Part shown: in pieces, positions 43,566 to 61,990 of the stretch
Numbering within the stretch: position 1 is the stretch's first letter
Layout of the letters: each line of letters opens with the position of its first letter
Made by a program: the position numbers and the translations under genes
Assembly (NCBI RefSeq): GCF_018614875.1
Contig: NZ_JAGGNW010000010.1
Location: forward strand, 310,001 to 374,000
Source: Variovorax paradoxus
Lineage (GTDB): Bacteria; Pseudomonadota; Gammaproteobacteria; Burkholderiales; Burkholderiaceae_C
Reading direction: 5' to 3'
Length of the DNA stretch: 64,000 nt
The notes under the pieces: model-generated
The model's database searches: none
What the model saw: the letters and a program-made list of their open reading frames with translations, nothing else
Told to the model about the DNA's origin: nothing

Positions 43566-43576
43566 CGTTGCTCCGA

Positions 43577-43743: not shown

Positions 43744-43818
43744 TGGTGCCTTCGACAGGAATCGAACCTGTATCTGAGTCTTAGGAGGACCCCGTTCTAT
43801 CCATTGAACTACGAAGAC
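43744..43818 (-). tRNA. tRNA-Arg (anticodon CCT)
   Basis: Full cloverleaf on the minus strand. Acceptor stem GTCTTCG/CGAAGGC, D arm GTTC...GAAC, anticodon stem GTC/GAC with loop CTCCTAA (anticodon CCT), and T arm ACAGG-TTCGATT-CCTGT. CCA is encoded. Its 3' end is the attachment site of the integrated element; the tRNA remains intact. Confidence 0.95.
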
Positions 43819-44303: not shown

Positions 44304-44317
44304 TTGACCATGGTCAA
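44304..44317. promoter_or_regulatory. FNR/CRP-type palindrome upstream of tctC
   Basis: TTGACCATGGTCAA, a perfect 14-bp palindrome of the TTGAC-N4-GTCAA type. It is 94 bases before tctC. Matching sites lie at 49178-49193 and 61862-61875. Candidate site for the CRP/FNR-family regulator at 48501. Confidence 0.7.
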
Positions 44318-44410
44318 GCAGGCGGAGTTCTTCCAGCGCGCACCATCGCCCCTGTTCGCATCTCGGCTCAGATCCACTAAAAAAAGAGCGCACCTTACAC
44401 AGGAGACAAC

Positions 44411-45436
44411 ATGATGAAGAACTTCTTTTCGCGCACCCGCGCTTGTCGGGCCAAAGTCTTCACCGCGGCCATGTTGGCGCTCGCGGTCGCCACGCCAGCC
44501 TTCGCATGGGAGCCCACCAAACCGGTGGAGTTCGTGATCCCCGCGGGCACGGGCGGAGGCGCCGACCAGATGGGCCGTCTGCTGCAGGGCATCGTCATCA
44601 AGTACAAGCTGATGAAGGAGCCGCTGATCGTCGTCAACAAGTCGGGCGGTGCGGGGGCCGAGGGCTTCCTTGCCGTGAAGGAAGCCAAGGGCGATCCGCA
44701 CAAGATCATCATCTCGCTGTCCAACCTGTTCACCACGCCCATGGCCACCGGCGTGCCCTTCAACTGGAAGGACATGACGCCAGTGGCGATGATGGCGCTC
44801 GACCAGTTCGTGCTGTGGACCAATGCCGAGCAGCCGTACAAGAGCGCCTCCGAGTACATCGCGGCGGCCAAGGCTGCAGGCCCGAACAAGTTCAAGATGG
44901 CCGGCACCGGCTCCAAGCAGGAAGACCAGATCATCACGGTGGCGCTCGAGAAGGCCACCGGCACCAAGTTCATCTACGTGCCGTTCAAGGGCGGCGGCGA
45001 GGTGGCGGTGCAACTGGTGGGCGGCCATGTGAACTCCACCGTCAACAACCCGATCGAGGCGGTGGCCCAGTGGCGTGCGGGCAAGCTGCGCGCGCTGTGC
45101 GTGTTCGACGACCACCGCATGCCGTTCAAGGCCAAGGTGACCGACACGCAGTCGTGGAACGATGTGCCCACCTGCAAGGAAGCCGGCGTTCCCACCAAGT
45201 ACACCATGCTGCGCGGCATCTTCATGCCTGCCGGCGTCACGCCCGACCAGCTCGCTTTCTACGTGGACCTGCTGACCAAGATCTCCGCCACGCCGGAGTG
45301 GAAGGAGTACATGGAGAAGGGTGCCTTCAACCCGACCTTCATGAGCGGCGACGCGTTCACCAAGTGGCTCACCGAAGCGGAGGCCACGCACCGCACGCTG
45401 ATGACTGAAGCCGGCTTCCTGGCCAGCAACAAGTAG
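44411..45436 (+). CDS. tctC: Tripartite tricarboxylate transporter substrate-binding protein (TctC)
   Basis: 341 residues with a signal peptide (KVFTAAMLALAVATPAFAW). The mature protein has the Bug/TctC fold: KPVEFVIPAGTGGGADQMGR, then NKSGGAGAEGFLAV, and VPFKGGGEVAVQLVGGHV. It should capture a carboxylate in the periplasm and deliver it to TctAB. Because the palindrome upstream matches those of oxc and oxlT, the substrate may be oxalate or a related acid; this is an inference. AGGAG precedes the ATG. Confidence 0.92.
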   Translation: MMKNFFSRTRACRAKVFTAAMLALAVATPAFAWEPTKPVEFVIPAGTGGGADQMGRLLQGIVIKYKLMKEPLIVVNKSGGAGAEGFLAVKEAKGDPHKIIISLSNLFTTPMATGVPFNWKDMTPVAMMALDQFVLWTNAEQPYKSASEYIAAAKAAGPNKFKMAGTGSKQEDQIITVALEKATGTKFIYVPFKGGGEVAVQLVGGHVNSTVNNPIEAVAQWRAGKLRALCVFDDHRMPFKAKVTDTQSWNDVPTCKEAGVPTKYTMLRGIFMPAGVTPDQLAFYVDLLTKISATPEWKEYMEKGAFNPTFMSGDAFTKWLTEAEATHRTLMTEAGFLASNK

Positions 45437-45550
45437 CAACCGGGCGTCGCGCGACGCTTTTCGCCTGAAGAGACGGCCGCCGGCGGGGCGGCGGGCGGAG
45501 CGCTGCACTTTCGTTTTCACGGCAACACACACACGAACGATGGGGACTCC

Positions 45551-46072
45551 ATGGAGCACGACGAGATTTCAGACGGCCCGGCGCGTACGGGCGTAGCGAC
45601 CCACGTGGTCGAGGCGGTGGTTGCACTGATCCTGCTGGCGATAGGCCTGGTGGTGATCTACGAGAGCCAGAGGCTGGGTTCCGGCTGGACCAGCGATGGC
45701 CCCGGTGCGGGGTACTTCCCGTTCTACATCGGCGTGATCATCGCCATTTCCGGCGCCGGCATCCTGTACCAGGCGCTGCTGGGCAAGGACCGGAAGACAG
45801 AGGTCTTCGTCGACTCGGTGCAGCTCAGGCGCGTGCTGTCGGTGCTGCTGCCGGCCACGGTCTACGTGGGGGCCATTTCCTTGCTCGGCCTGTACGTGGC
45901 GTCGGCGATCTACATCGCGCTCTTCATGGTGTTTCTCGGCAAGTGCTCGTGGGTGAAGAGCGTCATTGCGGCGCTGGCGGTCAACACGGTGTTCTTCTGC
46001 ATGTTCGAGGTGTGGTTCAAGGTGCCGCTGTTCAAGGGCGCCCTCGATCCCCTCCGGTTTCTCGGCTACTGA
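45551..46072 (+). CDS. tctB: Tripartite tricarboxylate transporter small subunit TctB
   Basis: 173 residues with four predicted membrane spans (VVALILLAIGLVVIYESQRL; GYFPFYIGVIIAISGAGIL; VLLPATVYVGAISLLGLYVA; VIAALAVNTVFFCMFEVWF). Ends in PLFKGALDPLRFLGY, typical of TctB. It lies 114 bases after tctC and 21 before tctA. Confidence 0.92.
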   Translation: MEHDEISDGPARTGVATHVVEAVVALILLAIGLVVIYESQRLGSGWTSDGPGAGYFPFYIGVIIAISGAGILYQALLGKDRKTEVFVDSVQLRRVLSVLLPATVYVGAISLLGLYVASAIYIALFMVFLGKCSWVKSVIAALAVNTVFFCMFEVWFKVPLFKGALDPLRFLGY

Positions 46073-46093
46073 ATCTCACGGAGCAAATGCGAA

Positions 46094-47623
46094 ATGGATG
46101 AAATCAGTGCCCTGATGCAGGGCTTCTCGGTAATCCTCACGCCGATGAACATCGGCCTGATGTTCGTCGGCATCATCCTGGGGGTGTTGATTGGCGTGCT
46201 CCCCGGCCTGGGCGGCGCCAACGGCGTGGCCATTCTGCTGCCGCTCACGTTCACGATGTCGCCCACCTCGGCGATCATCATGCTGTCGTGCATCTACTGG
46301 GGTGCGTTGTTCGGCGGAGCCATCACCTCCATCCTGTTCAACATCCCGGGCGAACCATGGTCGGTGGCCACCACCTTCGACGGCTACCCGATGGCGCAGC
46401 AGGGCAACGCGGGCGCCGCGCTGACCACGGCCTTCACGTCCTCGTTCGTCGGTGCGCTGCTGGCGGTGATCATGATCACCTTCCTGGCGCCGCTGGTGGC
46501 CAAGTTCGCGCTCAAGTTCGGGTCGCCCGAATTCTTTGCGGTGTACCTGCTGACCTTCTGCAGTTTCGTGGGCATGGGCAAGGGGTCGCCGTTCAAGATC
46601 CTGGCGTCGATGGCGCTCGGCTTTGCGCTGGCCAGTGTGGGCATGGACACGGTCACGGGCCAGCTGCGGCTCACCTTCGGCCAGTCCGAGCTGATGCGCG
46701 GCTTCGACTTCCTGATTGCGGTGATCGGCCTGTTCGGCATCGGCGAAATCCTGCTGTCGATGGAAGAAGGCCTGAAGTTCTCGGGCAAGAGCGCGAAGAT
46801 CGATCCCAAGGTGGTGCTGCAGACCTGGAAGCAGTTGCCGCAGTACTGGGTGACCTCGCTGCGCAGCTCGCTGATCGGCATCTGGATGGGCATCACGCCG
46901 GGCGGCGCGACGCCGGCTTCGTTCATGGCCTACGGCCTGGCCAAGAAGATGTCGAAGCGCGGGTCGAAGTTCGGCACCGGCCAGATGGAAGGCGTCGTGG
47001 CGCCCGAGACCGCGGCCCACGCCGCCGGCACCAGCGCGCTGCTGCCGATGCTGGCGCTCGGCATTCCGGGCTCGCCCACCGCCGCGGTGCTGCTGGGCGG
47101 CCTGCTGATCTGGGGCCTGCAGCCCGGACCGCTGCTGTTCGTCGAGCAGAAGGACTTCGTCTGGGGCCTGATCGCCAGCATGTACCTGGGCAACATCGTC
47201 GGACTCATCGTGGTGCTGAGCACGGTGCCGCTGTTCGCTTCGATCCTGCGCATTCCGTTCTCGATCATTGCGCCGGTGATCATCGTGATCTGCGCCATCG
47301 GCGCCTACACGGTGCACAACGCGATGCTCGACATCTGGTTCATGCTCGGCTTCGGCGTGGTGGGGTATCTGTTCAAGAAGCTCGACTTTCCGCTCGCGCC
47401 GCTGGTGCTGGCGCTGGTGCTCGGCGACAAGGCGGAAGACTCGTTCCGCCAGGCCATGCTGGTTTCGCAGGGCGACGTGATGATCATGTTCTCGAACCCG
47501 CTGGTCGGCGGCATCACCACGCTGGCGCTCCTGCTGCTGTTCTGGCCGCTGATCTCCAAGGCGCTGGCGCTCGTCAAGCCCAAGAAGCCCGACGAGTTCG
47601 CCGTCGAGCGCCCGGTGGATTGA
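46094..47623 (+). CDS. tctA: Tripartite tricarboxylate transporter large permease TctA
   Basis: 509-residue integral membrane protein with the TctA signature GVLPGLGGANGVAILLPLTF and a mirrored second copy near GIPGSPTAAVLLGGLLIWGL, plus SILFNIPGEPWSVATTFDGY. About 12 spans. It forms the channel of the secondary tripartite transporter with TctB. 15 bases separate it from the kinase-like/BON gene, so the four genes form one operon. Confidence 0.95.
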   Translation: MDEISALMQGFSVILTPMNIGLMFVGIILGVLIGVLPGLGGANGVAILLPLTFTMSPTSAIIMLSCIYWGALFGGAITSILFNIPGEPWSVATTFDGYPMAQQGNAGAALTTAFTSSFVGALLAVIMITFLAPLVAKFALKFGSPEFFAVYLLTFCSFVGMGKGSPFKILASMALGFALASVGMDTVTGQLRLTFGQSELMRGFDFLIAVIGLFGIGEILLSMEEGLKFSGKSAKIDPKVVLQTWKQLPQYWVTSLRSSLIGIWMGITPGGATPASFMAYGLAKKMSKRGSKFGTGQMEGVVAPETAAHAAGTSALLPMLALGIPGSPTAAVLLGGLLIWGLQPGPLLFVEQKDFVWGLIASMYLGNIVGLIVVLSTVPLFASILRIPFSIIAPVIIVICAIGAYTVHNAMLDIWFMLGFGVVGYLFKKLDFPLAPLVLALVLGDKAEDSFRQAMLVSQGDVMIMFSNPLVGGITTLALLLLFWPLISKALALVKPKKPDEFAVERPVD

Positions 47624-47638
47624 ACGGAGAACAACGAC

Positions 47639-48475
47639 ATGCCAGTCATTGCACTCACCCAGGAGATGGGTTCCCTCGCCAAGGACGTGTCGCTGCGCCT
47701 CGCCGAGCAGCTTGGCCTCGAGGTCATGCGCCACGAGACGATCGAGCGGGTGGCCGACCGCATGCAGGTGCCGAGCAGTTTCATCGGCCGCCTGCGCGAC
47801 GGCAAGGCCGGCTTCGTCGAACGGCTCACCGCCGACCGGCGCAGCCTCGCGCTCTACACGGCCGAGGAGCTCTTCGCGCTGGCCGACCGCGGCAACGTGG
47901 TGCTGCGCGGCTGGGGCGCCACCTGCCTGCTGCGGCCGGTGCCGCACGTGGTGTGCGTACGCATCACGCGCTCGATGAAGAAGCGGGTCGAATGGCTGAT
48001 GGCGCACCTCGAAACCGACGATGCCGAGTTTGCCGAAGCCGAGATCCGGCGCAGCGACGACGCGCACGCGGCGCGCATGCATGCGCAGTTCGGTGTGACA
48101 TGGGGCGACCCGGTGCTCTACGACCTGGTGCTCAACACGGACCGCCTCTCGGTGGACAGCTGCGTGGCGCAGATCCGCGCGCTGGTGGAGCGCCCGGAGT
48201 TCGCCGAGACACCGGCCTCGCGCGTGCTGCTGGCCAACATGACGCTCGCGGCGCGGGTGAAGTCGGCGCTGAAGGACAACGAGGCGACCAGCGACATCCG
48301 CGTGACCGTCGAGGCCGACCAGGGCAAGCTCACGCTGAGCGGCATCGTGCTCGATGCGCAGGAGCGCGTGCTCACGCAGGATGTGGCTTCCAAGGTCGAC
48401 GGCGTGAGCGGCGTCGACAACGCGCTGCGCCTGATGACCGTTCCGCGCCGCTTCGCGTCGGCGAAGCAGACCTGA
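47639..48475 (+). CDS. Cytidylate kinase-like protein with C-terminal BON domain
   Basis: 278 residues. The N-terminal about 190 residues resemble the cytidylate kinase-like family (PF13189 type): VIALTQEMGSLAKDVSLRLA, LGLEVMRHETIERVADRM, and GNVVLRGWGATCLLRPVPHV. The P-loop is degenerate (TQEMGSLAKD). The C-terminal about 75 residues are a BON domain (IRVTVEADQGKLTLSGIVLD; VASKVDGVSGVDNALRLM). It follows tctA by 15 bases. A fusion of a P-loop kinase relative with a BON domain in a transporter operon is odd; no signal peptide, so it is cytoplasmic. A regulatory role is possible but unproven. Confidence 0.8.
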   Translation: MPVIALTQEMGSLAKDVSLRLAEQLGLEVMRHETIERVADRMQVPSSFIGRLRDGKAGFVERLTADRRSLALYTAEELFALADRGNVVLRGWGATCLLRPVPHVVCVRITRSMKKRVEWLMAHLETDDAEFAEAEIRRSDDAHAARMHAQFGVTWGDPVLYDLVLNTDRLSVDSCVAQIRALVERPEFAETPASRVLLANMTLAARVKSALKDNEATSDIRVTVEADQGKLTLSGIVLDAQERVLTQDVASKVDGVSGVDNALRLMTVPRRFASAKQT

Positions 48476-48500
48476 ACCATCCTCGGACGATTGGGGCGAG

Positions 48501-49109
48501 CTAAATCTTCCCGCGCTTGCGCAGGCGGCTCAGGGTTTCCGCGGAGAGATTGAGGTACGACGCCAGCTCCTTGCTCGGAATGCGGTCTTCGAGCTCCGGG
48601 TGCTTGCGCATGAACCGGTGCACGCGGCCCGGCGCGTCGAGCAGATGAAGCGTGATGGTGTGCGCCATGATCTCGCTCATGCCGCGCATCACGCAGTACT
48701 CGAACAGCTCCTTGGTCTCGGGGTGGCGGTTCAGGAACGCGATCCATTCCTTCAGCGGCAGGCTCGCCACGCGCGCCTTGGTGACGCAGACGATGCCGTA
48801 GGGCGTGGGCGTGCCCAGGCGCAGCGCCGCGTAGCTGGTTTCCATGTCGTGCGCATCGGCAAAGCGCAGGATCATTTCCTTGCCCTCGGGGTTGCTCACC
48901 ACCCGCTTGAGGATGCCGTCGAGGATGAAGTACTGCTCCATCTCGCGCACGCCCTGGTGCAGCAGGAAGTCGCCCTTGTTGCCGTCCACGATGACGAGAT
49001 GGGTTTCCAGCTCGGTGCGATCGCTCTCGCTCAGGTCCTTGAGCAGGATGTTCTGCCGGAGCTGCGCGCGAATGATGTTTTTCTCCGGGTGGTTTTCCAA
49101 CAGCGTCAT
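48501..49109 (-). CDS. CRP/FNR family transcriptional regulator
   Basis: 202 residues: cyclic-nucleotide-binding-type beta barrel (GDFLLHQGVREMEQYFILDG) and a C-terminal winged helix with SKELASYLNLSAETLSRLRK. The recognition helix carries E191, S194 and R195 in the ExxSR arrangement used by FNR to read TTGA half-sites. No N-terminal cysteines, so no FNR-type oxygen-sensing cluster. It is divergent from oxc, with TTGACCGAGGTCAA in the shared gap. Start at 49109 is the ATG that gives family length. Proposed oxalate regulator; the ligand is unknown. Confidence 0.88.
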   Translation of the reverse strand: MTLLENHPEKNIIRAQLRQNILLKDLSESDRTELETHLVIVDGNKGDFLLHQGVREMEQYFILDGILKRVVSNPEGKEMILRFADAHDMETSYAALRLGTPTPYGIVCVTKARVASLPLKEWIAFLNRHPETKELFEYCVMRGMSEIMAHTITLHLLDAPGRVHRFMRKHPELEDRIPSKELASYLNLSAETLSRLRKRGKI

Positions 49110-49177
49110 GGGTCCCGTCTTGCTCGAATGCGCAACAACAACTTCTGGTTCATCTGGCCGGTGCCGTTTTCCGGAAA

Positions 49178-49193
49178 GTTGACCGAGGTCAAC
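49178..49193. promoter_or_regulatory. FNR/CRP-type palindrome between regulator and oxc
   Basis: GTTGACCGAGGTCAAC, 7-bp arms with a two-base centre. It is 73 bases from the oxc start and 69 from the regulator start. A -10-like TCATAG lies at about 49215-49220, giving spacing near -41.5, as for class II activation of oxc. It could also mediate autoregulation. Confidence 0.7.
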
Positions 49194-49265
49194 GCCCGAA
49201 AGCATGCCCCCGAATCATAGTCCCGGCTCGGGCCTCGGCCATTCACCCAAGCAAGAAGGAGAGAC

Positions 49266-51095
49266 ATGTCTTCAGTAAGAACGGACAAAGAGGCATCCAC
49301 GACCCTGGACGACGCCCTCAAGCCCAAGAACAGGGCGAACGACGGCGATGCGGTCGTGCTGGCCCTCAAGCAGCCCACGGAGGAGGAGGCCGCGGCGCAC
49401 GAAACGACGATCGATGGCTTCCACCTGGTCATCGATGCGCTCAAGCTGAACGGCATCGACACCATCTTCGGCCTGCCGGGCATTCCGATCACCGACCTCA
49501 CGCGCATGGCGCAGGCTGAGGGCCTGCGGGTCATCTCGTTCCGCCACGAGCAGCATGCGGGCAACGCCGCCGCCGCGGCCGGCTTTCTCACGCAGAAGCC
49601 CGGCATCTGCCTGACCGTGTCGGCCCCCGGCTTCCTGAACGGGCTCACGGCGCTGGCCAACGCCACCACCAACTGCTTCCCGATGATCCTGATCAGCGGC
49701 TCGAGCGAGCGCGAGATCGTCGACCTGCAGCAGGGCGACTACGAAGAGATGGATCAGCTCGCGATCGCCAAGCCGCTGTGCAAGGCCGCCTTCCGCGTGC
49801 TGCATGCCGAGGACATCGGCGTGGGCATTGCACGGGCGATCCGCTCGGCGCTGTCGGGCCGCCCGGGCGGCGTGTACCTCGACCTGCCGGCCAAATTGTT
49901 CGCGCAGACCATGGATGCCGAAGCCGGCCGCAGATCGCTCATCAAGGTGGTCGATCCCGCGCCGCGCCAGATTCCGGCGCCCGACGCCGTGAAGCGCGCG
50001 CTCGACCTGCTCAAGGGCGCCAAGAAGCCGCTGATCCTGCTGGGCAAGGGCGCGGCCTATGCGCAGGCCGATGCAGACATTCGCGCATTGATCGAGAAGA
50101 CCGGCATTCCCTACCTGCCGATGTCGATGGCCAAGGGCCTCTTGCCCGACACCCACACGCAATCGGCCGCGGCCGCGCGCTCCTACGTGCTGCAGGAAGC
50201 CGACGTGGTGATGCTGGTCGGCGCGCGCCTCAACTGGCTGCTCTCGCACGGCAAGGGCAAGACCTGGGGCCAGGAGAAGGGCGCCAAGCAGTTCATCCAG
50301 ATCGACATCGCGCCGACCGAGATCGACAGCAACGTGGCCATTGCCGCGCCGGTGATCGGCGACATCGGCTCCTGCGTGGCGGCGCTGCTCGCGGGCGTCG
50401 ATGCCAAGTGGGCCAAGCCGCCGGCCGAATGGACCGGCGCCATCGCCGAGCGCAAGGACAAGAACCTGTCGAAGATGGCCGTGACGCTGGCCGCGCGGCC
50501 TTCGCCGATGAACTTCCACAGCGCGCTCAGCGTGATCCGCGACCAGGTGAAGGCGCGGCCCGACGCCATCGTGGTGAACGAAGGCGCCAACACGCTGGAC
50601 TTCGCGCGCAGCATCGTCGACATGTACGAGCCGCGCAAGCGCCTCGACGTGGGTACCTGGGGAATCATGGGCATCGGCATGGGCTTTGCCGTGGCCGCCG
50701 CGGTGGTCACCGACAAGCCGGTGATCGCCATCGAAGGCGACAGCGCCTTCGGCTTCAGCGGCATGGAGGTGGAGACCATCTGCCGCTACAACCTGCCGAT
50801 CTGCATCGTCGTGTTCAACAACAACGGCGTCTACCGCGGCACCGACGTGAACGCGAGCGGCACGCCCGACGTGGCGCCCACCGTGTTCGTGAAGAACGCG
50901 CGCTACGACAAGCTGATGGAAGCCTTCGGCGGCGTCGGCGTCAACGCCACCACCGCGGATGAATTGCAGAAGGCGCTGGCCGAAGCCGTCGCCTCGCGCC
51001 GTCCCACCCTGATCAACGCCGTGATTGACGAGACCGCCGGCACCGAAAGCGGCCGCATCACCAGTCTGAACCCCAGCACGGCGAAGAAGAAGTAA
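49266..51095 (+). CDS. oxc: Oxalyl-CoA decarboxylase
   Basis: ThDP enzyme that splits oxalyl-CoA into formyl-CoA and CO2. 609 residues. The N-terminal ThDP domain has the catalytic glutamate E95 in [15 protein letters not shown]; the C-terminal one has the cofactor motif from GDSAFGF (about 491) to FNNNG. ADP-site segment [21 protein letters not shown] matches Oxc. It is about 40 residues longer than Oxalobacter Oxc because of a polar N-terminal extension (1-45). It starts the oxc-frc operon. Confidence 0.95.
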
Positions 51096-51120
51096 CCCAG
51101 CACCATCAAGGAGAACTCAT

Positions 51121-52392
51121 ATGAGCAACAAACCCCTCAACGGCATCAAGATCATCGACTTCACGCACGTGCAAGCCGGTCCGGCCTGTACCCAGATGCT
51201 GGCCTGGTTCGGTGCCGACGTGATCAAGGTCGAGCGCCCGGGCGCCGGCGACGTCACGCGCAGCCAGCTGCGCGACATCCCGAACGTCGACGCCCTGTAC
51301 TTCACCATGCTCAACAGCAACAAGCGCTCGATCACGCTGGACACGAAGAAGCCCGAGGGCAAGGCCGTGCTGGAAAAGCTGATCCGCGAATCCGACGTGC
51401 TGGTCGAGAACTTCGGCCCCGGCGCTCTGGACCGCATGGGCTTTACCTGGGCGCGCATCCAGGAGCTGAACCCCAAGATGATCGTCGCATCGGTCAAGGG
51501 CTTCAGCGACGGCCACCACTACGAAGACTTGAAGGTGTACGAGAACGTGGCGCAGTGCGCCGGCGGCGCCGCCTCCACCACCGGCTGGTGGAAGGGCGAG
51601 AACTCCGCCCCGACGATCTCGGCGGCCGCACTGGGCGACTCCAACACCGGCATGCACCTGGCCATCGGCATCCTGACGGCCATCATCGGCCGCCAGCAGA
51701 CCGGCAAGGGCCAGAAGGTGGCCTGCTCGATGCAGGATGCCGTGCTCAACCTGTGCCGCGTGAAGATGCGCGACCAGCAGCGCCTGGACAGCGTCGGCTA
51801 CCTGGAGGAATACCCGCAGTACCCGCACGAGATGGACGCCTTCAAGGACAAGGTGGTGCCGCGCGGCGGCAACGCCGGCGGTGGTGGCCAGCCAGGCTGG
51901 ATCCTGAAGTGCAAGGGCTGGCAGACCGATCCCAACGCCTACATCTACTTCACGGTGCAGGGCCATGCCTGGGACCCGATCTGCGACGCGCTGGGCAAGC
52001 CCGAGTGGAAGACCGATCCGGACTACATGACCCCCAAGGCCCGCCAGCCGCACATCGACCAGATCTTCGCCACCATCGAGGACTTCATCAAGGACAAGAC
52101 CAAGTTCGAGGCAGTGGACATCTTCCGCAAGCACGACATTCCCTGCGCCCCGGTGCTGTCGATGAAGGAACTGCTGCACGACGAGTCGCTGCGCAAGAGC
52201 GGCTCCATCGTCGAGGTCCCGCACAAGGAGCGCGGCAGCTACTGGACCATCGGCAGCCCGATCAAGTTCTCGGACCTCAAGCCCGAGGTCACCGCCTCGC
52301 CGCTGCTGGGCGAGCACACTGACGAGGTGCTGGCGGAACTGGGCTATACCAAGCAACAGATCGACAACCTGAAAGAATCGAAAGCCGTGTAA
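51121..52392 (+). CDS. frc: Formyl-CoA:oxalate CoA-transferase
   Basis: Class III CoA-transferase that moves CoA from formyl-CoA to oxalate, keeping the oxc cycle running. 423 residues. Catalytic aspartate D173 in [11 protein letters not shown], and the mobile tetraglycine loop GGGGQ (253-257) that closes over the active site in Oxalobacter Frc. N-terminal [20 protein letters not shown] is typical. It follows oxc by 25 bases. This one has the canonical loop, so it is the likelier true Frc of the two. Confidence 0.94.
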
Positions 52393-52443
52393 TTGGCTCA
52401 CCCCCAGGCTTGCCCACTTTGAAATGAAGCGCCAGAGGTAAAC

Positions 52444-52881
52444 ATGCAAGCGAACGTTGATTTGAAGCAGCTCGTCGAAGGCGCCGGCGACGCGATCATG
52501 GTGTGCGATGCGCAAGGGGCGATCACGCTCTGGAACCGCGCGGCCGAGCGCATCTTCGGCTTCACCGAAGCCGAGGCGCTGGGCCAGTCGCTCGACATGA
52601 TCATTCCCCAGCGGCAGCGCCAGCGGCACTGGGACGGCTATCAGAAAACCATGGAAACCGGCATGACCAAGTACGGTGCCGACCTGCTGCGCGTGCCGGC
52701 GCTGCACAAGGACGGGCACACGCTGTCGATCGCCTTCACGGTGTCGATGCTGTTCTCGGAAAATCGTGAAGTCACGGGCATCGTCGCCATGGTGCGGGAC
52801 GAAACCGTCCGTTTCGCCGAAGAGCGTAAATTGCGCGCTCGTCTGCAAGAAGCAGAGTCCACGGCCAAAGGAGACAGCTGA
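52444..52881 (+). CDS. Stand-alone PAS domain protein, FixL-like
   Basis: 145 residues made up of one PAS domain and a short C-terminal helix. [20 protein letters not shown] and [20 protein letters not shown] are standard [18 protein letters not shown] matches the FixL F-helix in which the histidine binds haem; here it is H62. There is no kinase or output domain. It overlaps the second CoA-transferase by one base (TGATG). A haem-based gas or redox sensor acting on the CoA-transferases or a partner is possible. Haem binding is inferred from alignment by eye. Confidence 0.8.
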
Positions 52882-54128
52882 TGAGCAAGGCACTTGAGGG
52901 TGTTCGCATTCTCGATTTCACCCATGTGCAGTCCGGTCCCACCTGCACCCAGCTGCTGGCCTGGTTCGGCGCCGACGTGATCAAGGTGGAGCGCGCCGGC
53001 GAAGGCGACGCAACGCGCGGGCAACTGCGCGACATTCCCGGCGTGGACAGCCTCTACTTCACGATGCTGAACCACAACAAGCGCTCGATCACGCTCGACA
53101 CCAAGAAGCCCAAGGGCAAGAAGGTGCTCGACTCGCTGATCAAGACCTGCGACGTGCTGGTCGAGAACTTCGCGCCCGGCGCGCTCGACCGCATGGGCAT
53201 CACCTGGGCCCACATCCAGGAGCTCAACCCGCGCATGATCGTGGCGTCGGTCAAGGGTTTCGGCCCCGGCAAGTACGAGCATTGCAAGGTGTACGAGAAC
53301 GTGGCCCAGTGCGCCGGCGGCGCGGCCTCGACCACGGGCTTCGAAGATGGCCCGCCGGTCGTCACGGGCGCGCAGATCGGCGACAGCGGCACCGGCCTGC
53401 ACCTGGCGCTGGGCATCGTGGCGGCGCTGTACCAGCGCAACAGCACGGGCCGTGGCCAGCAGGTGCTCGCGCCCATGCAGGACGCGGTGCTCAACCTCTG
53501 CCGCGTGAAGATGCGCGACCAGCAGCGGCTGGAGCGCACCGGCACCATGCACGAATACCCGCAGTACCCCGACGGCAAGTTTGGCGATGCGGTGCCGCGC
53601 GCGGGCAACGCCTCGGGCGGCGGCCAGCCGGGCTCCATCCTCAAGTGCAAGGGCTGGGAGACCGATCCCAACGCGTACATCTACTTCATCACGCAAGGGG
53701 CCGTGTGGCCCGCGGTGTGCAAGGTCATCGGCGAAGAAGGGTGGATCAACGACGAGGCCTACGCCACGCCGGCCGCGCGCCTCTTGCACCTGAAGCCGAT
53801 CTTCGCGCGCATCGAGCAATGGACCATGACCAAGACCAAGTTCGAGGCCATGGACATCCTCAACCAGTACGACATCCCGTGCGGGCCCATTCTCTCTATG
53901 AAGGAAATCGCCGCCGACCCGTCGCTGCGCGAGACCGGCACGATCGTCGAGGTCGACCACCCGACGCGCGGCAAGTACCTGACGGTGGGCAACCCGATCA
54001 AGATGTCCGACAGCCCGACCGAGGTCACAAGATCGCCGCTGCTCGGCGAGCACACCGACGAGGTGCTGATGCAGCTGGGCTACACCGCCAGCGACGTGGC
54101 GGCGCTGCGTGCCGAAGGCGTGATCTGA
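52881..54128 (+). CDS. Second CoA-transferase of the formyl-CoA/oxalate family
   Basis: 415 residues, closely related to the frc product at 51121 (same [41 protein letters not shown]). Catalytic aspartate D168 is kept ([11 protein letters not shown]), but the glycine loop reads SGGGQ (245-249). Position and length support a CoA-transferase for oxalate or another small acid such as succinate or acetate. Translationally coupled to the PAS gene. Calling it Frc would be plausible but not certain. Confidence 0.88.
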
Positions 54129-54333
54129 ACTGAACGCCGTTTGAAGGCGGCGAAAAAACGCGGATGGCTCGTGCATCCGCGACGGAAATTTCATTGCCAA
54201 TTATGTATAACTTGTAGCGAATGCATTCAATAAAATAGTTTAACTATTATTTATCGATCATCGAATCTACATTTTGATCATGCCGATCCGAAAAACGTTT
54301 GACGCCCGGCATTCAATTTCTAGGAGAAATTTC
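54129..54333. other. AT-rich gap after the CoA-transferases
   Basis: About 200 bases with lower GC (ATAATTGTT-like, TTTAACTATTATTTATCG). It probably holds the promoter of the gene at 54334. The stretch GGCGGCGAAAAAACGCGG at about 54147 could be a weak terminator; no stem is strong. Confidence 0.35.
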
Positions 54334-54663
54334 ATGATCGATGATTTTCCGATTCAATACTGGAACAGCGAAACCGAGCGCAACGCCTACAACGCAGCGT
54401 TCTACGAATTGGGATTCCGCTGGCACTGGGACCGTGAAATCTATTGTCAGCTGCTGCGTGAGAGCCAAGACGGCGCCGAGCGGATCTGCCAGTACCTCCG
54501 CACCTACCAGCCGCATCTTCTGCGCGCCTACGATGCCGAATTTCTGGCGGACGTGATCGAGCAGAAGAAGGAAGAGCATCAAAAGCGCGAGCTCGATGCC
54601 GGCGCCATGAAAAGGCGTTATTTCAATTGGGCCGAAAGCCGCGGCGCCGAACTCGGCGCCTGA
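54334..54663 (+). CDS. Conserved small protein upstream of the CoA ligase pair
   Basis: 109 residues with many aromatic residues ([36 protein letters not shown]) and a helical, charged C-terminal part ([15 protein letters not shown]). No named family recognised. TAGGAGAAA upstream sets the ATG at 54334, excluding a 20-codon extension. It is 16 bases before the CoA ligase beta gene, so probably co-transcribed with it. Confidence 0.72.
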
Positions 54664-54679
54664 CCTGAAAGCCGCCACC

Positions 54680-55852
<1,173 letters not shown>

Positions 55853-55907
55853 AATCGCGCTCTTCTGTTTGTCGTCGCATTGTGTTTGGCGTGCTCCGTT
55901 CAGGGCG

Positions 55908-56144
55908 CGCTCCCGCCGACGGGGTACGCAGCGAAGCGAATGTCCTCCGGCCTTCGGCCTCCTCCTTGATTTCGCTGCGCAAGGCACCCCATCGACGGGA
56001 GCGTTGGATAGAGCAGTCGTTGATCGGCGGTACACCCACAGCGTGCCCAGGTGCACAGGGCATCGGGTGCTCCCCGCAGCGAAATAAAGGAGGAGCCGAA
56101 GGCGGGGGACATTCGCGGAGGGGAGTACCCGGTGGCCTGTGCAC
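55908..56144. repeat. Double-hairpin repeat between the CoA ligase genes
   Basis: Two long imperfect stems. Hairpin 1 (55908-56003) pairs CGCTCCCG...GGGGT...GCAGCGAA with its complement. Hairpin 2 (56051-56144) pairs GTGCACAGG...CGGGT...CTCCCC...GCGAA with its complement. The centres, CCTCCGGCCTTCGGCCTCC and its complement-like GGAGGAGCCGAAGGCGGGGG, are related to each other in opposite orientation. It looks like a MITE-type or REP-type insertion. Confidence 0.75.
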
Positions 56145-56209
56145 GCGCCCCGAACAGCAGCGTCGAAAACACGAGCACCCCGCAACACAACGCATGGTGA
56201 AAAGCTGAG

Positions 56210-57109
56210 ATGTCGATCCTCATCAACAAGCACACCCGCGTCATCACCCAGGGCATCACGGGAAAGACCGGACAGTTCCACACCGCGATGTGCCGCGACT
56301 ACGCCAATGGACAGAAATGCTTCGTGGCAGGCGTCAATCCGAACAAGGCAGGCAAGTCCTTCGACGGCATCCCCGTGTTCGGCAGCGTCGAGGAAGCCAA
56401 GGCCGAAACCGGCGCCACCGTGTCCGTGATCTACATGCCGCCGCCCTTCGCGGCCGCGGCCATCGACGAGGCGGTGGACGCGGGGCTCGACCTCGTCGTA
56501 TGCATCACCGAAGGCATTCCGGTGCGCGACATGATCCGCACCCGGCACCGCATGGAGGGCAGCAAGACCCTGCTGCTCGGCCCCAACTGCCCGGGCCTCA
56601 TCACGCCCGACGAAATCAAGATCGGAATCATGCCCGGCCACATCCACCAGAAGGGCCGCATCGGCGTGGTCTCGCGCTCCGGCACGCTGACCTACGAGGC
56701 CGCGAGCCAGCTCGCGAGCTTCGGCATCGGGCAGTCGACCGTGGTGGGCATCGGCGGCGATCCGGTGGGCGGGCTGCGGCACATCGACGTGCTGAAGATG
56801 TTCAACGACGACCCGCGCACCGACGCCGTGATCATGGTCGGCGAGATCGGCGGCAGCGACGAGGAAATCTGCGCGCGCTGGATCAGCGAGCACATGCGAA
56901 AGCCCGTGGTCGGCTTCATCGCCGGTGCCAGCGCGCCGCCGGGCAGGCGCATGGGCCACGCAGGCGCCATCGTCTCGGGCGGCAAGGGAACGGCGCAGGA
57001 AAAACTCGCAGTGATGAAGGAGTGCGGCATCCACGTGACGCACAACCCGGCCGAGATGGGAAAGCTGCTCGCGTCGCTGGTCATCCCCGACTACCTGCCT
57101 TTCGATTGA
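56210..57109 (+). CDS. ADP-forming CoA ligase, alpha subunit (SucD-like paralogue)
   Basis: 299 residues. CoA-binding Rossmann domain ([39 protein letters not shown]) and the phosphohistidine in [13 protein letters not shown] (H250). [20 protein letters not shown] and IGGDPVGG are normal SucD motifs. Partner of the SucC-like subunit at 54680. The gap between them is filled by a repeat, so their co-translation is broken and alpha may need its own ribosome supply. Confidence 0.9.
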
Positions 57110-57149
57110 GCTGAAAAACCACTCCAGCAGAAACCAAGGAAGGCAAGAC

Positions 57150-57935
57150 ATGCAACAGCAGCAGCAGCTACAACAGCAATGGGTCCGTTTCGAACACGGC
57201 GGTGAAGCGGGCTTCGGCACGCTCGAAGGCGATGCCGTGCACGAGCACCGCGGCAACATGTTCGACCGCCCCGAGCCGACCGGCCGCGTGTTCGTGCTCT
57301 CCGGCGTGCGGCTGCTCACGCCCACCGAGCCGACCAAGGTCATCGCGCTGTGGAACAACTTCCACGCGCTCGGCGAGAAGCTCAAGCTGCCGGTGCCTGC
57401 CGAGCCGCTGTACCTGCTGAAGGCGCCCAACTCCTACCTCGCGCCCGGCGCGCCCATCCGGAAGCCCCTGTGCGATGGCAAGGTGGTGTTCGAGGGCGAA
57501 CTCGGCATCGTCATCGGCAAGACCTGCACCGCCGTGCCCGAGGCGGATGCGCTTCGCCATGTGTTCGGCTACACCTGCGCCAACGACGTGACGGTGGCCG
57601 ACATCCTGAACCGCGATGCGTCGTTCGCCCAATGGGTGCGGGCCAAGGGCTTCGACACCTTCTGCCCGATGGGCCCGGTGGTGGCCACCGGCCTCGATCC
57701 CGCAACGCTCAGCGTGACCACGCTGCTCGACGGCGAGCAGCGGCAGAACTATCCGATCAGCGACATGCGCTTTTCGGTCCAGCAACTCGTGAGCCTGATC
57801 TCCTTCGACATGACGCTGCATCCCGGCGACGTGATCCTGTGCGGCACCTCCATCGGCGTCGGCTCGATGAAGCCCGGCAGCCTGGTCGAAGTCGAGATCG
57901 GCGGCATCGGCAGGCTGGCCAACCGCTTCGGCTGA
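57150..57935 (+). CDS. Fumarylacetoacetate hydrolase family protein
   Basis: 261 residues with the FAH fold: VIALWNNFHALGEKLKL, YLLKAPNSYLAPGAPI, metal ligands in VVFEGELGIVIGK (E-x-E), NDVTVAD, and the catalytic FDTFCPMGPVV, GDVILCGTSIGVG. An N-terminal run of glutamines (MQQQQQLQQQW) is unusual. Family members act as hydratases, decarboxylases or hydrolases on keto acids (for example 2-oxohept-3-enedioate, oxaloacetate or acylpyruvates). A role on a small 2-oxo acid next to oxalate metabolism is plausible. Confidence 0.85.
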   Translation: MQQQQQLQQQWVRFEHGGEAGFGTLEGDAVHEHRGNMFDRPEPTGRVFVLSGVRLLTPTEPTKVIALWNNFHALGEKLKLPVPAEPLYLLKAPNSYLAPGAPIRKPLCDGKVVFEGELGIVIGKTCTAVPEADALRHVFGYTCANDVTVADILNRDASFAQWVRAKGFDTFCPMGPVVATGLDPATLSVTTLLDGEQRQNYPISDMRFSVQQLVSLISFDMTLHPGDVILCGTSIGVGSMKPGSLVEVEIGGIGRLANRFG

Positions 57936-57980
57936 GGCCTGGCCGCGCCGCCAGAAGAATCAACAACCTTGGGAATCGAC

Positions 57981-58994
57981 ATGAAGATAGCAGTCATCGG
58001 AGCGGGCGCGATCGGCGGCCTGGTGGGCGCCAAGCTCGCCCTGGCCGGCGAGGACGTGACCTTCATCGTGCGCGGGAAGAATCTCGACGCCATCGCCACC
58101 AACGGATTCAAGCTCATCGGGGCCGATGGGCAAGAGCAGGTGGCGCTGAATGTGAAGGCCACCGACCGCTACGACCAGGCGGGGCCGCAGGACATCGTGA
58201 TCCTCGCGATGAAGGCACACCAGGTCGAGGCGGTGGCCAACGACGTGCCCAAGCTGTTCGGGCCCGAGACCGTGGTGGTGACGATGCAGAACGGCATCCC
58301 GTTCTGGTACTTCCACGACCACGGCGGCGCGCTGGCGGGCACGCCGGTGCGCAGCGTCGATCCCACCGGCCTGGTGGCCGCGAAGATCCCGGCAGAGCGC
58401 GTCATCGGCTGCGTGGTGTACCCAGCGTCGGAGCTGACGGCGCCGGGCGTGGTGAGGCACATCGAAGGCGACCGCTTCCCGGTCGGCGAGCTCGACGGTT
58501 CGTCGAGCGAGCGCGTGAACCGCGTGTCGGCCTGCCTCGCCGCCGCCGGCTTCAAGGCGCCGGTGCTCGACAACATCCGCGCCGAGATCTGGCTCAAGCT
58601 CTGGGGCAACCTGACCTTCAACCCGATCAGCAGCCTTTCGCATTCGACGCTGGTCGACATCTGCCAGTATCCGCCCTCGCGCGAGCTGGCCGCCGCGATG
58701 ATGCGCGAGGCGCAGGCAGTGGCGCACAAGCTGGGCATCGAGTTCCGCGTGACGCTCGACAAGCGCATTGCCGGTGCCGAGAAGGTGGGCAAGCACAAGA
58801 CCTCGATGCTGCAGGACGTGGAAGCCGGACGCGCGCCGGAGATCGATGCGCTGGTGGGCGCCGTGGTCGAGCTGGCCCGCCTCACCGACACGCCAACCCC
58901 GCACATCGACACCGTGTATTCCCTCGTCAAGCTGCTGGCGCGTACGATGGACGAACAGCGCGGCCGGGTTTGCCTTCACGAGATGGCGGGCTAG
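57981..58994 (+). CDS. 2-dehydropantoate 2-reductase family protein (PanE-like)
   Basis: 337 residues from the ATG at 57981. The NADP-binding Rossmann motif is MKIAVIGAGAIGGLVGAKLA and the second domain has AEIWLKLWGNLTFNPISSLS (the catalytic Lys is in the LKLWGN segment) and LGIEFRVTLDKRI. The family reduces ketopantoate, but many paralogues in catabolic clusters act on other 2-oxo acids. Here it could reduce glyoxylate or tartronate semialdehyde-like products; that is inference from context. Upstream TTG start at 57969 is less likely. Confidence 0.85.
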   Translation: MKIAVIGAGAIGGLVGAKLALAGEDVTFIVRGKNLDAIATNGFKLIGADGQEQVALNVKATDRYDQAGPQDIVILAMKAHQVEAVANDVPKLFGPETVVVTMQNGIPFWYFHDHGGALAGTPVRSVDPTGLVAAKIPAERVIGCVVYPASELTAPGVVRHIEGDRFPVGELDGSSSERVNRVSACLAAAGFKAPVLDNIRAEIWLKLWGNLTFNPISSLSHSTLVDICQYPPSRELAAAMMREAQAVAHKLGIEFRVTLDKRIAGAEKVGKHKTSMLQDVEAGRAPEIDALVGAVVELARLTDTPTPHIDTVYSLVKLLARTMDEQRGRVCLHEMAG

Positions 58995-59060
58995 CGCCAC
59001 TCAGGCTGCACGGTTTTGCGCCGCGGGTGCACCGGTTGTGCGCTGTGACCGATCGATGAA

Positions 59061-60488
59061 ATGGAACGGATGATGCGACGTACACGCAGTGCGAAGATTG
59101 TTGCCACGCTGGGCCCAGCCACCTCCGACGAGCCGGCCATCCGTGCCTTGTTCGAGCGCGGCGTGGATGTGTTCCGGCTCAATTTCAGCCATGGCACGCA
59201 GCATGACCATGCGCGTCGCCTGGACACGATCCGGCGGCTCGAGAAGGAGTTCGGCCGGCCGATCGGCGTGCTGCTCGACCTGCAGGGGCCGAAGCTGCGG
59301 CTGGGCACTTTCGAAGGCGGCCGCGCGCAGCTCGATGCGGGGTCGCGCTTTCGTCTCGACATGGACGCAACCAGCGGCAATGCGCGCCGCGCGCCGCTGC
59401 TGCATCCGGAAATTTTCGCGGCGCTGCAGGTAGGCACCGATCTGCTGCTCGACGACGGCAAGCTGCGGCTGCGCGTGGACAGCTACGGCCCCGACTTTGC
59501 GGAAACCACGGTGCTGGTCGGCGGGCCCATCTCCGATCGCAAGGGCGTCAATGTGCCGAGCGTGGTGCTGCCGATCTCGCCGCTGACGCCCAAGGACCTC
59601 GACGACCTGGCCTGCGGCCTGGCCATGGGCGTCGACTGGGTCGCGCTTTCCTTCGTGCAGCGCCCCGAGGACATCGCGGAGGCGCGCGCCATCATCGGCA
59701 AGCGCGCATGGATCATGGCCAAGCTCGAGAAGCCCGCGGCCATCGACCACCTCGACGCGATCGTCGACCTGTGCGACGGCGTCATGGTGGCGCGCGGCGA
59801 CCTCGGCGTGGAGCTGCCGCCCGAGCGCGTGCCCGAGCTGCAGCGCCTCATCGTGCGTGCCTGCCGCAAGCGCGGCAAGCCGGTGGTGGTGGCCACGCAG
59901 ATGCTCGAATCGATGATTGCCGCGCCGGTGCCCACGCGCGCCGAGGTGTCCGACGTTGCAACCGCCGTCTACGACGGGGTGGACGCGGTGATGCTGTCGG
60001 CCGAATCGGCTTCCGGAAAGTATCCGCTCGAGGCCGTGGCCATGATGGACCGCATCATCTCGCGCGTGGAGGCCGATGCGTCCTACCGCATCGGCATCGA
60101 CGCCACGCACGAGGCGTCCCTGTCGACCACGGCCGATGCGGTCTGCGCGTCGATGCGCCAGGTGGCCGCGCTGCTTGCGCCCGCCGCCACCGTCACCTAC
60201 ACCTCGTCGGGCTTCACCAGCCTGCGCGCCGCGCGCGAACGGCCCGCCGTGCCCATCATCAGCCTCACGCCCGACGTGGCCACGGCCCGCCGCATGGCGA
60301 TGGTGTGGGGCGTGCATGCGGTGCTGGTCGATGACGTGCACGACGTGGCCGAGATGATCGAACACGCCTGCCGCAATGCATGCACCGAAGGCTTTGCGAG
60401 CACCGGCAACGACGTGGTGGTTGTCGCGGGCCTGCCGTTCGGGCTGTCGGGAACGACCAACCTGCTGCACGTCGCGCGCATACCCTAG
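59061..60488 (+). CDS. pyk: Pyruvate kinase
   Basis: Converts phosphoenolpyruvate and ADP to pyruvate and ATP. 475 residues: RRTRSAKIVATLGPATSDEP, FRLNFSHG, GVLLDLQGPKLRLG, the K/E motif IMAKLEKPAAIDH, GDLGVELPPERVP and VATQMLESM. Active-site residues appear intact. Its position after oxalate genes fits the glycerate route, in which glyoxylate-derived 2- and 3-phosphoglycerate reach pyruvate; no gcl or glycerate kinase gene is in the window, so this is tentative. Start at the MERMMRR methionines is ambiguous. Confidence 0.93.
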   Translation: MERMMRRTRSAKIVATLGPATSDEPAIRALFERGVDVFRLNFSHGTQHDHARRLDTIRRLEKEFGRPIGVLLDLQGPKLRLGTFEGGRAQLDAGSRFRLDMDATSGNARRAPLLHPEIFAALQVGTDLLLDDGKLRLRVDSYGPDFAETTVLVGGPISDRKGVNVPSVVLPISPLTPKDLDDLACGLAMGVDWVALSFVQRPEDIAEARAIIGKRAWIMAKLEKPAAIDHLDAIVDLCDGVMVARGDLGVELPPERVPELQRLIVRACRKRGKPVVVATQMLESMIAAPVPTRAEVSDVATAVYDGVDAVMLSAESASGKYPLEAVAMMDRIISRVEADASYRIGIDATHEASLSTTADAVCASMRQVAALLAPAATVTYTSSGFTSLRAARERPAVPIISLTPDVATARRMAMVWGVHAVLVDDVHDVAEMIEHACRNACTEGFASTGNDVVVVAGLPFGLSGTTNLLHVARIP

Positions 60489-60553
60489 ACCCTGCTTGAG
60501 AGCGGCCCCGGACGCAGTACGATGCCCGCTCGTTTTGCAGCCACCCTTTCCGA

Positions 60554-61483
60554 ATGAAGCACGCGACACTGCGCCAGTTGAAAGTCTTCGAAGCGGTGGC
60601 GCGGTTGCTGAGCTTCTCGCGCGCGGCGGAAGAGCTTCACCTGACGCAGCCGGCCGTCTCCACGCAGGTGCGCAAGCTCGAGGAACACGCGGGCAACGCG
60701 CTGTTCGAGCAGTTCGGCAAGAAGATCTACCTGACCCCCGCGGGCACCGAGCTGCTGCAGATCAGCCGCGCGATCATCCAGCAGTTCGAGGCGGCCGAGA
60801 ACGCGATGCTGCAGTTCAACGGCGTCTCGGGCGGCAAGCTCAACGTGGGTGTGATCAGCGCCGGCGATTATTTCTTTCCGCGCCTCTTGGTGGAGTTTGC
60901 GAGCCGGCACCGCGGCGTGACGCTGAACTTCACCGTGCACAACCGCGAAGGGCTCATGACCCACATCGCGGAGAATCTCACCGACCTGGCGATCATGGTG
61001 CGCCCGCCGACCGACCTGGACACCGTCAACCAGCCGTTCGCGCCGCATCCCTACGTGATCGTTGCCGCGCCCGGCCATCCGCTGGTGGGCGTGCCGCGCA
61101 TCCCGCTGGCGCGGCTCATGCGCGAACCCTTCGTGGTGCGCGAGAAGGCCTCGGACACCTGGCATTCGATGGAAGAAGGCTTTGGCGGCGACCTGAGCGG
61201 CATCAACATCGCGATGGAGATCCGCAGCACCGAAACCATCAAGCAGGCGGTGATCGCGGGCATGGGCGTGAGCTTCGTGTCGGCCCACACCATCAGCCAG
61301 GAGATGCGCGCCGGCAGCCTGCGCGTGCTCGATGTGCAGGGCTTTCCGCTGATGCTCAACTGGTACGTGGTGCACCGGCGCAGCAAGCGGCTGCCGCCGG
61401 TGGCGCAGGCCTTCAAGGACTTCCTGCTCGCCGACGGGGCGGCGCTCATTTCGCAGATCGTGCCCTTCGACGCTGCGGCTTGA
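60554..61483 (+). CDS. LysR family regulator (CbbR-like)
   Basis: 309 residues. HTH: FSRAAEELHLTQPAVSTQVR. The effector domain has ENAMLQFNGVSGGKLNVGVI and the start MKHATLRQLKVFEAVARLLS is very close to CbbR-type (RuBisCO operon) LysR regulators. No cbb genes are in the window, so it probably responds to another metabolite of the same kind, such as a C2/C3 phosphoester or NADPH. It starts 65 bases after pyk on the same strand. Confidence 0.88.
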   Translation: MKHATLRQLKVFEAVARLLSFSRAAEELHLTQPAVSTQVRKLEEHAGNALFEQFGKKIYLTPAGTELLQISRAIIQQFEAAENAMLQFNGVSGGKLNVGVISAGDYFFPRLLVEFASRHRGVTLNFTVHNREGLMTHIAENLTDLAIMVRPPTDLDTVNQPFAPHPYVIVAAPGHPLVGVPRIPLARLMREPFVVREKASDTWHSMEEGFGGDLSGINIAMEIRSTETIKQAVIAGMGVSFVSAHTISQEMRAGSLRVLDVQGFPLMLNWYVVHRRSKRLPPVAQAFKDFLLADGAALISQIVPFDAAA

Positions 61484-61543
61484 TGAAGAACAGGCAGGAG
61501 AGATGCCTTGCGCATTCTCCCGCCGGGCCCGAAGCCCGAGCGA

Positions 61544-61702
61544 TCAGCGGGCGCCAGCGCCTGCGGAACGCTGCAGCGCGGCGCGTGCAGCCTTCGCGAA
61601 GATCACGATGGGCATCGCGGCGATGAGGCCGCGCAGGGTTTCGTTGGTGCCCAGCGAAGCGGTGTTCTTGAGTGCGTTGGAATTCACTGCGGTGTTGTTC
61701 AT
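61544..61702 (-). CDS. 52-residue hypothetical peptide
   Basis: MNNTAVNSNALKNTASLGTN followed by ETLRGLIAAMPIVIFAKAAR and a basic end AALQRSAGAGAR: a polar head and one hydrophobic, amphipathic helix. GGAGC lies 5 bases upstream of the start and a full sigma-70 promoter (61736-61764) precedes it. The promoter and the -10 region resemble those before the 79-residue gene at 43859-44098. Too short for normal annotation; function unknown. Confidence 0.65.
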   Translation of the reverse strand: MNNTAVNSNALKNTASLGTNETLRGLIAAMPIVIFAKAARAALQRSAGAGAR

Positions 61703-61735
61703 GGAACGCTCCGAAAGTTGAAAGAGACTGGCTCG

Positions 61736-61764
61736 ATTATAGGGTTTACACCTAATTCAGGCAA
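61736..61764 (-). promoter_or_regulatory. Sigma-70 promoter of the 52-residue gene
   Basis: On the minus strand: -35 TTGCCT (61764-61759), 17-base spacer, -10 TATAAT (61741-61736), predicting transcription from about 61729. The spacer end GTGTAAACCCTATAAT nearly repeats GGTAAACCCTAGAAT upstream of 44098. Confidence 0.75.
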
Positions 61765-61861
61765 ACCCCTCTTGCGATTTCGCCCAATGAGGAGTTGCGT
61801 CGGGCGCATCGTTCCTGCAGGGATATCAGGGGTGTATCGAGTGGTTGCGGTTGTCCGGAAC

Positions 61862-61875
61862 TTGACTGCGGTCAA
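61862..61875. promoter_or_regulatory. FNR/CRP-type palindrome upstream of oxlT
   Basis: TTGACTGCGGTCAA, same TTGAC-N4-GTCAA form as at 44304 and 49178, 116 bases before the antiporter start. The third candidate operator of the proposed oxalate regulator. Confidence 0.68.
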
Positions 61876-61882: not shown

Positions 61883-61899
61883 TCGGACGTCACGTCCGA
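61883..61899. promoter_or_regulatory. Perfect 17-bp palindrome TCGGACGTCACGTCCGA
   Basis: Eight-base arms around a single C, seven bases after the FNR-type site. It could be a second operator or, in RNA, a hairpin in the antiporter leader. A corresponding site is not seen near tctC or oxc. Confidence 0.5.
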
Positions 61900-61990
61900 C
61901 AGTCGTCCGCGTGCCCATCGCGCGAAAGAAAGAGCGGGCCGCCACCGACCTCGTCGGACCTCAATACAACATGAAGACAAAGGACAACCC

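Follow-up and report, generated by a model that had tools for sequence, protein, structure and literature searches.

Oxalate catabolism in bacteria is well described at the enzyme level, and the locus studied here raises the question of how its genes are controlled. The window, that is, the whole stretch of 64,000 nucleotides from Variovorax paradoxus that we analyzed, contains three exact TTGAC-N4-GTCAA palindromes. They stand upstream of the transporter genes tctCBA, between a gene of the CRP/FNR superfamily and the oxalyl-CoA decarboxylase gene oxc, and upstream of the antiporter gene oxlT, which are the promoters named in a preliminary description of this DNA. We consider it very likely, judging from sequence comparisons, that the product of 48501-49109 is a dedicated CRP/FNR-superfamily transcription activator of oxalate use that acts at these three promoters. 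The sites and the genes next to them are:

44304..44317: putative operator of tctCBA, TTGACCATGGTCAA; weak -10-like CACCAT at 44341-44346, chosen by its position in relatives
49179..49192: putative operator between regulator and oxc, TTGACCGAGGTCAA; -10-like hexamer CATAGT at 49216-49221, 23-bp spacing
61862..61875: putative operator of oxlT, TTGACTGCGGTCAA; weak -10-like GACAGT at 61898-61903, 22-bp spacing
48501..49109 (-): CRP/FNR-superfamily regulator, 202 aa; cNMP-binding domain and a short helix-turn-helix whose recognition helix carries ExxSR
44411..45436 (+): tctC, solute-binding protein of a tripartite tricarboxylate transporter; PF03401
49266..51095 (+): oxc, oxalyl-CoA decarboxylase; TIGR03254, 999.6 bits
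61991..63316 (+): oxlT, oxalate/formate antiporter of the major facilitator superfamily (MFS); TIGR04259, 667.5 bits against a cut-off of 335

A search of the window with one mismatch allowed yielded no site beyond the three exact ones. Shuffled windows gave a mean of 0.91 matches (sd 0.93) in the same search, and 7 of 100 reached three or more; the count in the window alone is thus only mildly unusual. The whole genome (5,589,483 bases) holds the exact pattern at five places and the backwards pattern at two. Three of the five lie within these 17.6 kb, a stretch that was picked post hoc, and we therefore relied on comparison across genomes instead of a clustering statistic. The fourth site (L004) is located at the start of a ZapE/AFG1-like open reading frame (ORF) adjoining lpd, gene names being our reading of the translations.

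Regulator and palindrome in related genomes

The family sample comprised 299 evenly drawn genomes, our own included, with thresholds of E <= 1e-100 for oxc and E <= 1e-20 for the regulator. We detected oxc in 52, the regulator in 50, and both in 49 genomes, which corresponds to 49 of the 53 genomes having either. The two genes were divergent neighbours in 46 of the 49, with 118-622 bp between the matched parts. The end of the regulator is found ~4.3-4.4 kb past the start of the oxc match in G168 and G246, and in G197 the regulator lies 679 kb from oxc. A regulator without oxc was found in G291, a genome that is 58% complete, and oxc without a regulator in G049 as well as in G052 and G281, both of which have oxc at a contig end. 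The phylum sample (349 genomes, our own included; E <= 1e-200 for oxc, E <= 1e-25 for the regulator) contained oxc in 24 and the regulator in 6 genomes, all six from the same order. No regulator was detected in the 15 oxc genomes outside the class, nor in four of the eight same-order ones outside the family; G466 carries a regulator without oxc. Among the best 80 of 553 relatives of the regulator, hereafter the named loci, 74 have oxc, in every case divergent from the regulator. Since the DNA of 11 of these 80 loci is also in the family set, the named and family sets are not independent.

We then inspected the 700 bp before each oxc match in the loci from the family and phylum samples. The exact palindrome was present at 44 of the 53 regulator-positive oxc genes, and the form TTGA[CT]N4[AG]TCAA at 52. 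By comparison, it occurred at one of the 22 regulator-negative genes (G052), for which 1/21 is the fairer figure because G281, among them, has only 6 bp upstream. The backwards pattern was absent from all 53 and all 22 upstream regions, and shuffling gave a motif rate of 0.0002 per 700 bp. Fisher's test of motif against regulator presence at oxc yielded p = 2e-16, a value that is descriptive only since the genomes are related. Another family of the order (f4) shows the same distribution, with the site in three small-genome species that have the regulator and not in four species without it. The sole regulator-positive miss is G197, in which tctC, tctB, tctA and oxc follow one another on the same strand and the site precedes tctC; of the four exact sites in this genome, three belong to regulon genes. 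G603 carries regulator and oxc on separate contigs and still has the oxc site. The named loci carry the site at 73 of 74 oxc genes; the miss, L186, has one base changed. Even in L221 and L222, where another thiamine pyrophosphate (TPP) enzyme stands in the place of oxc, the site is preserved.

At tctC, counted only in loci with at least 350 bp upstream, the site was found in 29/29 family loci (22 exact; tctC in 31 loci), in the one locus outside the family, and in 60/60 named loci (43 exact; tctC in 61). The family TctC proteins are 67-93% identical to that of the window. Homologues of oxlT carry the site in 8/17 family loci, 1/2 outside the family and 10/19 named loci, and its presence follows sequence identity. 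In the named loci, it precedes 10/10 oxlT genes at >=77% identity and 0/9 at <=69%, and in the family 6/7 at >=74% and 2/10 below (L059, L080). A Variovorax relative, L256, with an oxlT of 91% identity, has an identical oxlT site.

The motif is far from equally frequent at unrelated genes. The 59 fetched loci (51 from the family, 3 of them without a detected regulator, 7 from outside, and L256) contain 97 sites in 66 kb of oxc, tctC, regulator and oxlT promoters versus 18 in 967 kb elsewhere; for the named loci, the numbers are 150 in 98 kb versus 17 in 1,343 kb. Thus, on sequence comparison, the pairing of regulator and palindrome is conserved across many related genera, and the motif, present at orthologous oxc and tctC promoters, tracks the regulator at oxc in both samples. 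Neither of the refuting outcomes named in the preliminary description, equal frequency at unrelated genes or absence from orthologous promoters, was thus observed, and the co-occurrence is likewise in its favour.

Counting sites over whole genomes is a weak discriminator, since the exact pattern has a background of about five per genome. We compared 49 regulator-positive genomes with 49 regulator-less ones. For the former, we took the family genomes that have both genes, except five that were less complete or fragmentary (44 of 49), and added G446, G497, G583, G603 and G466; 48 thus have regulator and oxc, the remaining one being G466. The latter were taken in handle order from the 249 family genomes that lack the regulator, with low-completeness genomes mostly skipped. 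Exact sites averaged 6.7 and 5.0 per genome, respectively, and the backwards pattern 2.7 and 2.2. The excess of about two sites per genome fits a small regulon, and the 5.0 sites in regulator-less genomes indicate that other regulators use the exact pattern, too. The fifth exact site of our own genome (L005 1501-1514, TTGACCTGCGTCAA) lies 5' of a hypothetical ORF and a response regulator, names again read from translations; it could be a further target of the regulon or the box of another CRP/FNR protein.

Promoter geometry and mode of control

The aligned oxc promoters read gaAAa-TTGACC-NN-GGTCAA-tgg, followed after ~22 bp commonly by TATGAT, TATCAT or CATAGT. At position 5 of the oxc site, 98% of 53 sequences have C. 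In all three promoter types, the -10-like hexamer peaks 22-23 bp after the site. With -10 weights and a 21-24 bp range set by hand after inspection of the aligned oxc promoters, the best match fell into this range in 35/51 oxc, 28/50 tctC and 9/13 oxlT non-redundant promoters, versus 16-19% in shuffles. In the direction of the regulator, it did so in 14/67 promoters, with 17% in shuffles. Because the peak exists in the former directions only, the site appears to work towards oxc, tct and oxlT. Activators of the CRP/FNR type bind at class II promoters to sites centred at -41.5, and a 14-bp site followed by 22 bp and a -10 element fits this position. Judged from the -10-like hexamers, the promoters have this class II spacing of about 22 bp.

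Self-activation of the regulator gene was considered as well and is not supported, as no -10 peak points towards it and in the tandem loci L216-L218 the site precedes oxc, not the regulator. Conservation in orthologue alignments points to the ATG at 49109 as the best start, with the site 69 bp upstream; the longer mechanical ORF, to 49205, would span the palindrome.

The following mechanism would account for these results. A dimer of the regulator would bind AAA-TTGACC-N2-GGTCAA, a palindrome placed about -41.5 from the presumed starts of oxc-frc-PAS-frc, tctCBA and oxlT. The bound protein would then contact RNA polymerase at promoters that have no -35 box, as in class II activation, and induction may come from oxalate or a catabolic product (oxalyl-CoA, formyl-CoA or formate) through the beta-roll. 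Co-occurrence and site conservation support the earlier proposal of a dedicated regulator for two transport systems and the oxalate pathway, and the promoter geometry is the part from which we infer that it activates.

Could the palindromes instead be ordinary FNR/ANR/FixK/DNR boxes, through which the oxalate genes answer oxygen or nitric oxide via a global regulator? The palindrome is of the FNR/FixK/DNR type, and the genome encodes 13 proteins with cNMP-binding-domain matches, two of which (L259, L266) also have ExxSR near the C-terminus. Other proteins evidently use the pattern, as it also occurs in regulator-less genomes. However, of the 22 regulator-less oxc genes, 21 are devoid of the site (one with those 6 bp upstream), the canonical TTGAT-N4-ATCAA is present five times in the genome and not once in the window, and position 5 of the oxc site is nearly always C. 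We thus regard control by a global regulator as quite unlikely. Repression of these operons by the 48501-49109 product, relieved by oxalate, is likewise unlikely. Geometry alone is no proof of activation, and self-repression would be possible with a site 20-79 bp from the aligned regulator start in 118/126 loci. Yet in three promoters the site occupies the -35 place and keeps a nearly constant distance from weak -10-like elements, an arrangement that activation requires and repression does not. The chance that the TTGAC halves are sigma-70 -35 boxes or accidental palindromes is close to negligible: TTGACC does resemble TTGACA, and the shuffles above occasionally reach three one-mismatch matches, but the distance from the left TTGACC to the -10-like hexamer is 30-31 bp instead of 17, which is too far for a -35 box. 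In addition, conservation extends to both arms, and across genomes the site goes with the regulator.

Several observations weigh against a dedicated activator of the three promoters. Because the genomes are related by descent, the counts do not represent independent events. The exact motif, at about five per regulator-less genome, is not exclusive to the oxalate regulon, and 8/52 oxc sites are inexact (seven with one arm base changed, G046 with two). In G052, a site occurs although no regulator was detected; the contig of this genome ends beside oxc, and in the genus-mates G168 and G246 the regulator is located on this side. In the window itself, the -10 elements of tct and oxlT are weak. The controls at tctC and oxlT are weak, too: tctC of regulator-less loci has the site in 0/5 cases, yet the identity of these proteins to the TctC of the window is only 59-65%, compared with 67-93% in family loci, and they may therefore be paralogues. 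The oxlT homologues in the absence of a regulator (0/17 with site) are 52-69% identical and maybe paralogues as well. Finally, L041 has an oxlT of >=70% identity without a site, and nearly all less similar oxlT genes in regulator loci are devoid of it.

The regulator and its relatives

The 202-residue protein matches PF00027, the cNMP-binding beta-roll, with 37.9 bits (cut-off 27.5). This was the sole Pfam report at E <= 0.001, and no match to HTH_Crp was obtained. An alignment of 48 orthologues over ~200 residues has a mean column identity of 79%, and E190, S193 and R194 of the recognition helix (E-x-x-S-R) are invariant in all 48. FNR proper has four cysteines that hold a [4Fe-4S] cluster, three of them close to the N-terminus. 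In the regulator, such cysteines are found neither among the first 30 residues of the window protein nor in the invariant or nearly invariant columns of the 48 orthologues. Both features agree with what had been noted before. The missing cysteines, the one ground for calling the protein non-oxygen-sensing, are consistent with that label. The closest named relatives, among the best 80 of 553, are Variovorax proteins with 99% identity.

A profile search of solved-structure sequences gave 3dn7 as the best match (4.4e-14, profile positions 23-196) and also CRP and DNR (5.4e-07). The AlphaFold2 model (mean pLDDT 88, pTM 0.77) shows a beta-roll and a long helix, then two helices at the end of the chain (179-185 and 190-198), around which no wing strands are predicted. 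The helix-turn-helix thus seems to be present in a reduced form. Foldseek returned CRP-type proteins as best matches of the model, with E about 2e-11. The residues G71-E72 and R82-S83 of CRP, which bind the cAMP phosphate, align with T-S and T-P, and the regulator is probably not a cAMP receptor. Close to where cAMP would sit, the regulators have invariant T-x-Y-A-A and P-Y residues.

The protein is a member of the CRP/FNR superfamily, not FNR. Its helix A-E-T-L-S-R matches V-E-T-I-S-R of FNR, and it shares with E. coli-type FNR/ANR the TTGA core palindrome and the 22-bp class II spacing to -10. In contrast to FNR/ANR, the regulator has no N-terminal cysteines, its site has C instead of T at base 5, its DNA-binding end is shorter and without a Pfam helix-turn-helix match, and its regulon consists of gene neighbours and is not global. 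The former label "FNR-type" hence holds for the recognition residues and not for the family, the nearest solved protein being from Cytophaga. DNR, NnrR and FixK are cysteine-free regulators with similar boxes; the present protein differs in being tied to oxalate genes, not to denitrification or microoxic respiration, and in its low sequence similarity to them. The protein 3dn7, a cyclic-nucleotide-binding regulatory protein of Cytophaga hutchinsonii, has a similarly short C-terminal end, but its recognition helix reads E-x-x-S and then E where the regulator has the final R. CRP shares the fold and the class II mode of activation proposed here, and differs in the cAMP-contact residues. A broader proposal, which we put forward tentatively and as somewhat less probable than not, is that the protein founds a CRP/FNR group whose beta-roll would directly sense oxalate or oxalyl-/formyl-CoA instead of cAMP. 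With its reduced DNA-binding domain, it may be the specific oxalate switch of oxalotrophic Burkholderiales, with control kept where oxc was replaced.

In the open-licence literature, we found no sequence-defined regulator of oxc-frc in oxalotrophs and no CRP/FNR regulator of these genes, in line with the preliminary description, although one may be described elsewhere. The available part of PMC10192776 makes no mention of regulation, FNR or CRP, and that of PMC7486775 none of a transcriptional regulator or GntR; in the available part of PMC6515984, the one mention of oxalotrophy is in a reference that it cites. With a candidate regulator, an exact operator sequence and three promoters to work from, oxalate sensing by an oxalotroph becomes directly testable. 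Regulator and operator are a possible oxalate-sensor part for reporter strains, and the TctCBA-type transporter is a candidate for oxalate uptake.

A second group of regulators, 43-45% identical to the first, is encoded at L223 8814-9416 (G066), L224 9201-9791 (G168) and L225 8991-9581 (G246). In G066 and G168, it adjoins oxlT homologues of 68-69% identity, with TTGACCGCGGTCAA upstream in G066.

Genes of the locus

The remaining genes of the transport and oxalate clusters are:

45551..46072 (+): tctB; PF07331
46094..47623 (+): tctA; PF01970
47639..48475 (+): cytidylate-kinase-like and BON-domain protein, last gene of the tct cluster; PF13189, PF04972
51121..52392 (+): frc, formyl-CoA transferase, copy 1; TIGR03253, above cut-off
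52444..52881 (+): stand-alone FixL-like PAS protein, 145 aa; profile and structure-sequence matches
52881..54128 (+): frc, formyl-CoA transferase, copy 2; TIGR03253, above cut-off

Profile matches bore out the identities given earlier for tctCBA, the CRP/FNR-family gene, oxc and the OxlT-type antiporter. The genes tctC, tctB, tctA and kinase/BON run rightward from the 44304 site and meet the regulator gene tail to tail; the regulator, in turn, is divergent from oxc-frc-PAS-frc. The gaps are 25 bp between oxc and frc and 51 bp between frc and the PAS gene, which overlaps the second frc by 1 bp. Between the latter and the 61862 site, we found sucC/sucD-like, FAH, PanE-like, pyruvate kinase and LysR genes.

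The TPP enzyme that adjoins the regulator and its site in the place of oxc (L221 10142-11821, L222 10115-11809, also L158 and L173) is ~27-31% identical to oxc. For L221, the nearest models are those of acetolactate synthase and 2-hydroxyacyl-CoA lyase, with scores below the cut-offs. Since frc follows it in L221, L222 and L158, it is possibly an alternative oxalyl-CoA-processing enzyme.

The kinase/BON fusion (47639-48475) is present in 17/31 family and 45/61 named tctC-bearing loci. Directly left of the tct operator, a phage-type integrase gene (42345-43631, minus strand) stands beside a tRNA-Arg gene (cct; 43744-43818, minus strand), and the two likely mark the edge of an integrated element. 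The PAS protein between the frc genes has homologues in 23/51 family loci, and its best solved matches are the heme-PAS domains of FixL and DosP. The residue aligned near the FixL heme histidine is His in 89/89 sequences (the window's protein and homologues from fetched loci). Its H-x-x-G-Y motif may be frequent in ordinary PAS domains, too. By these alignments, the protein may be a heme or oxygen sensor without an output domain.

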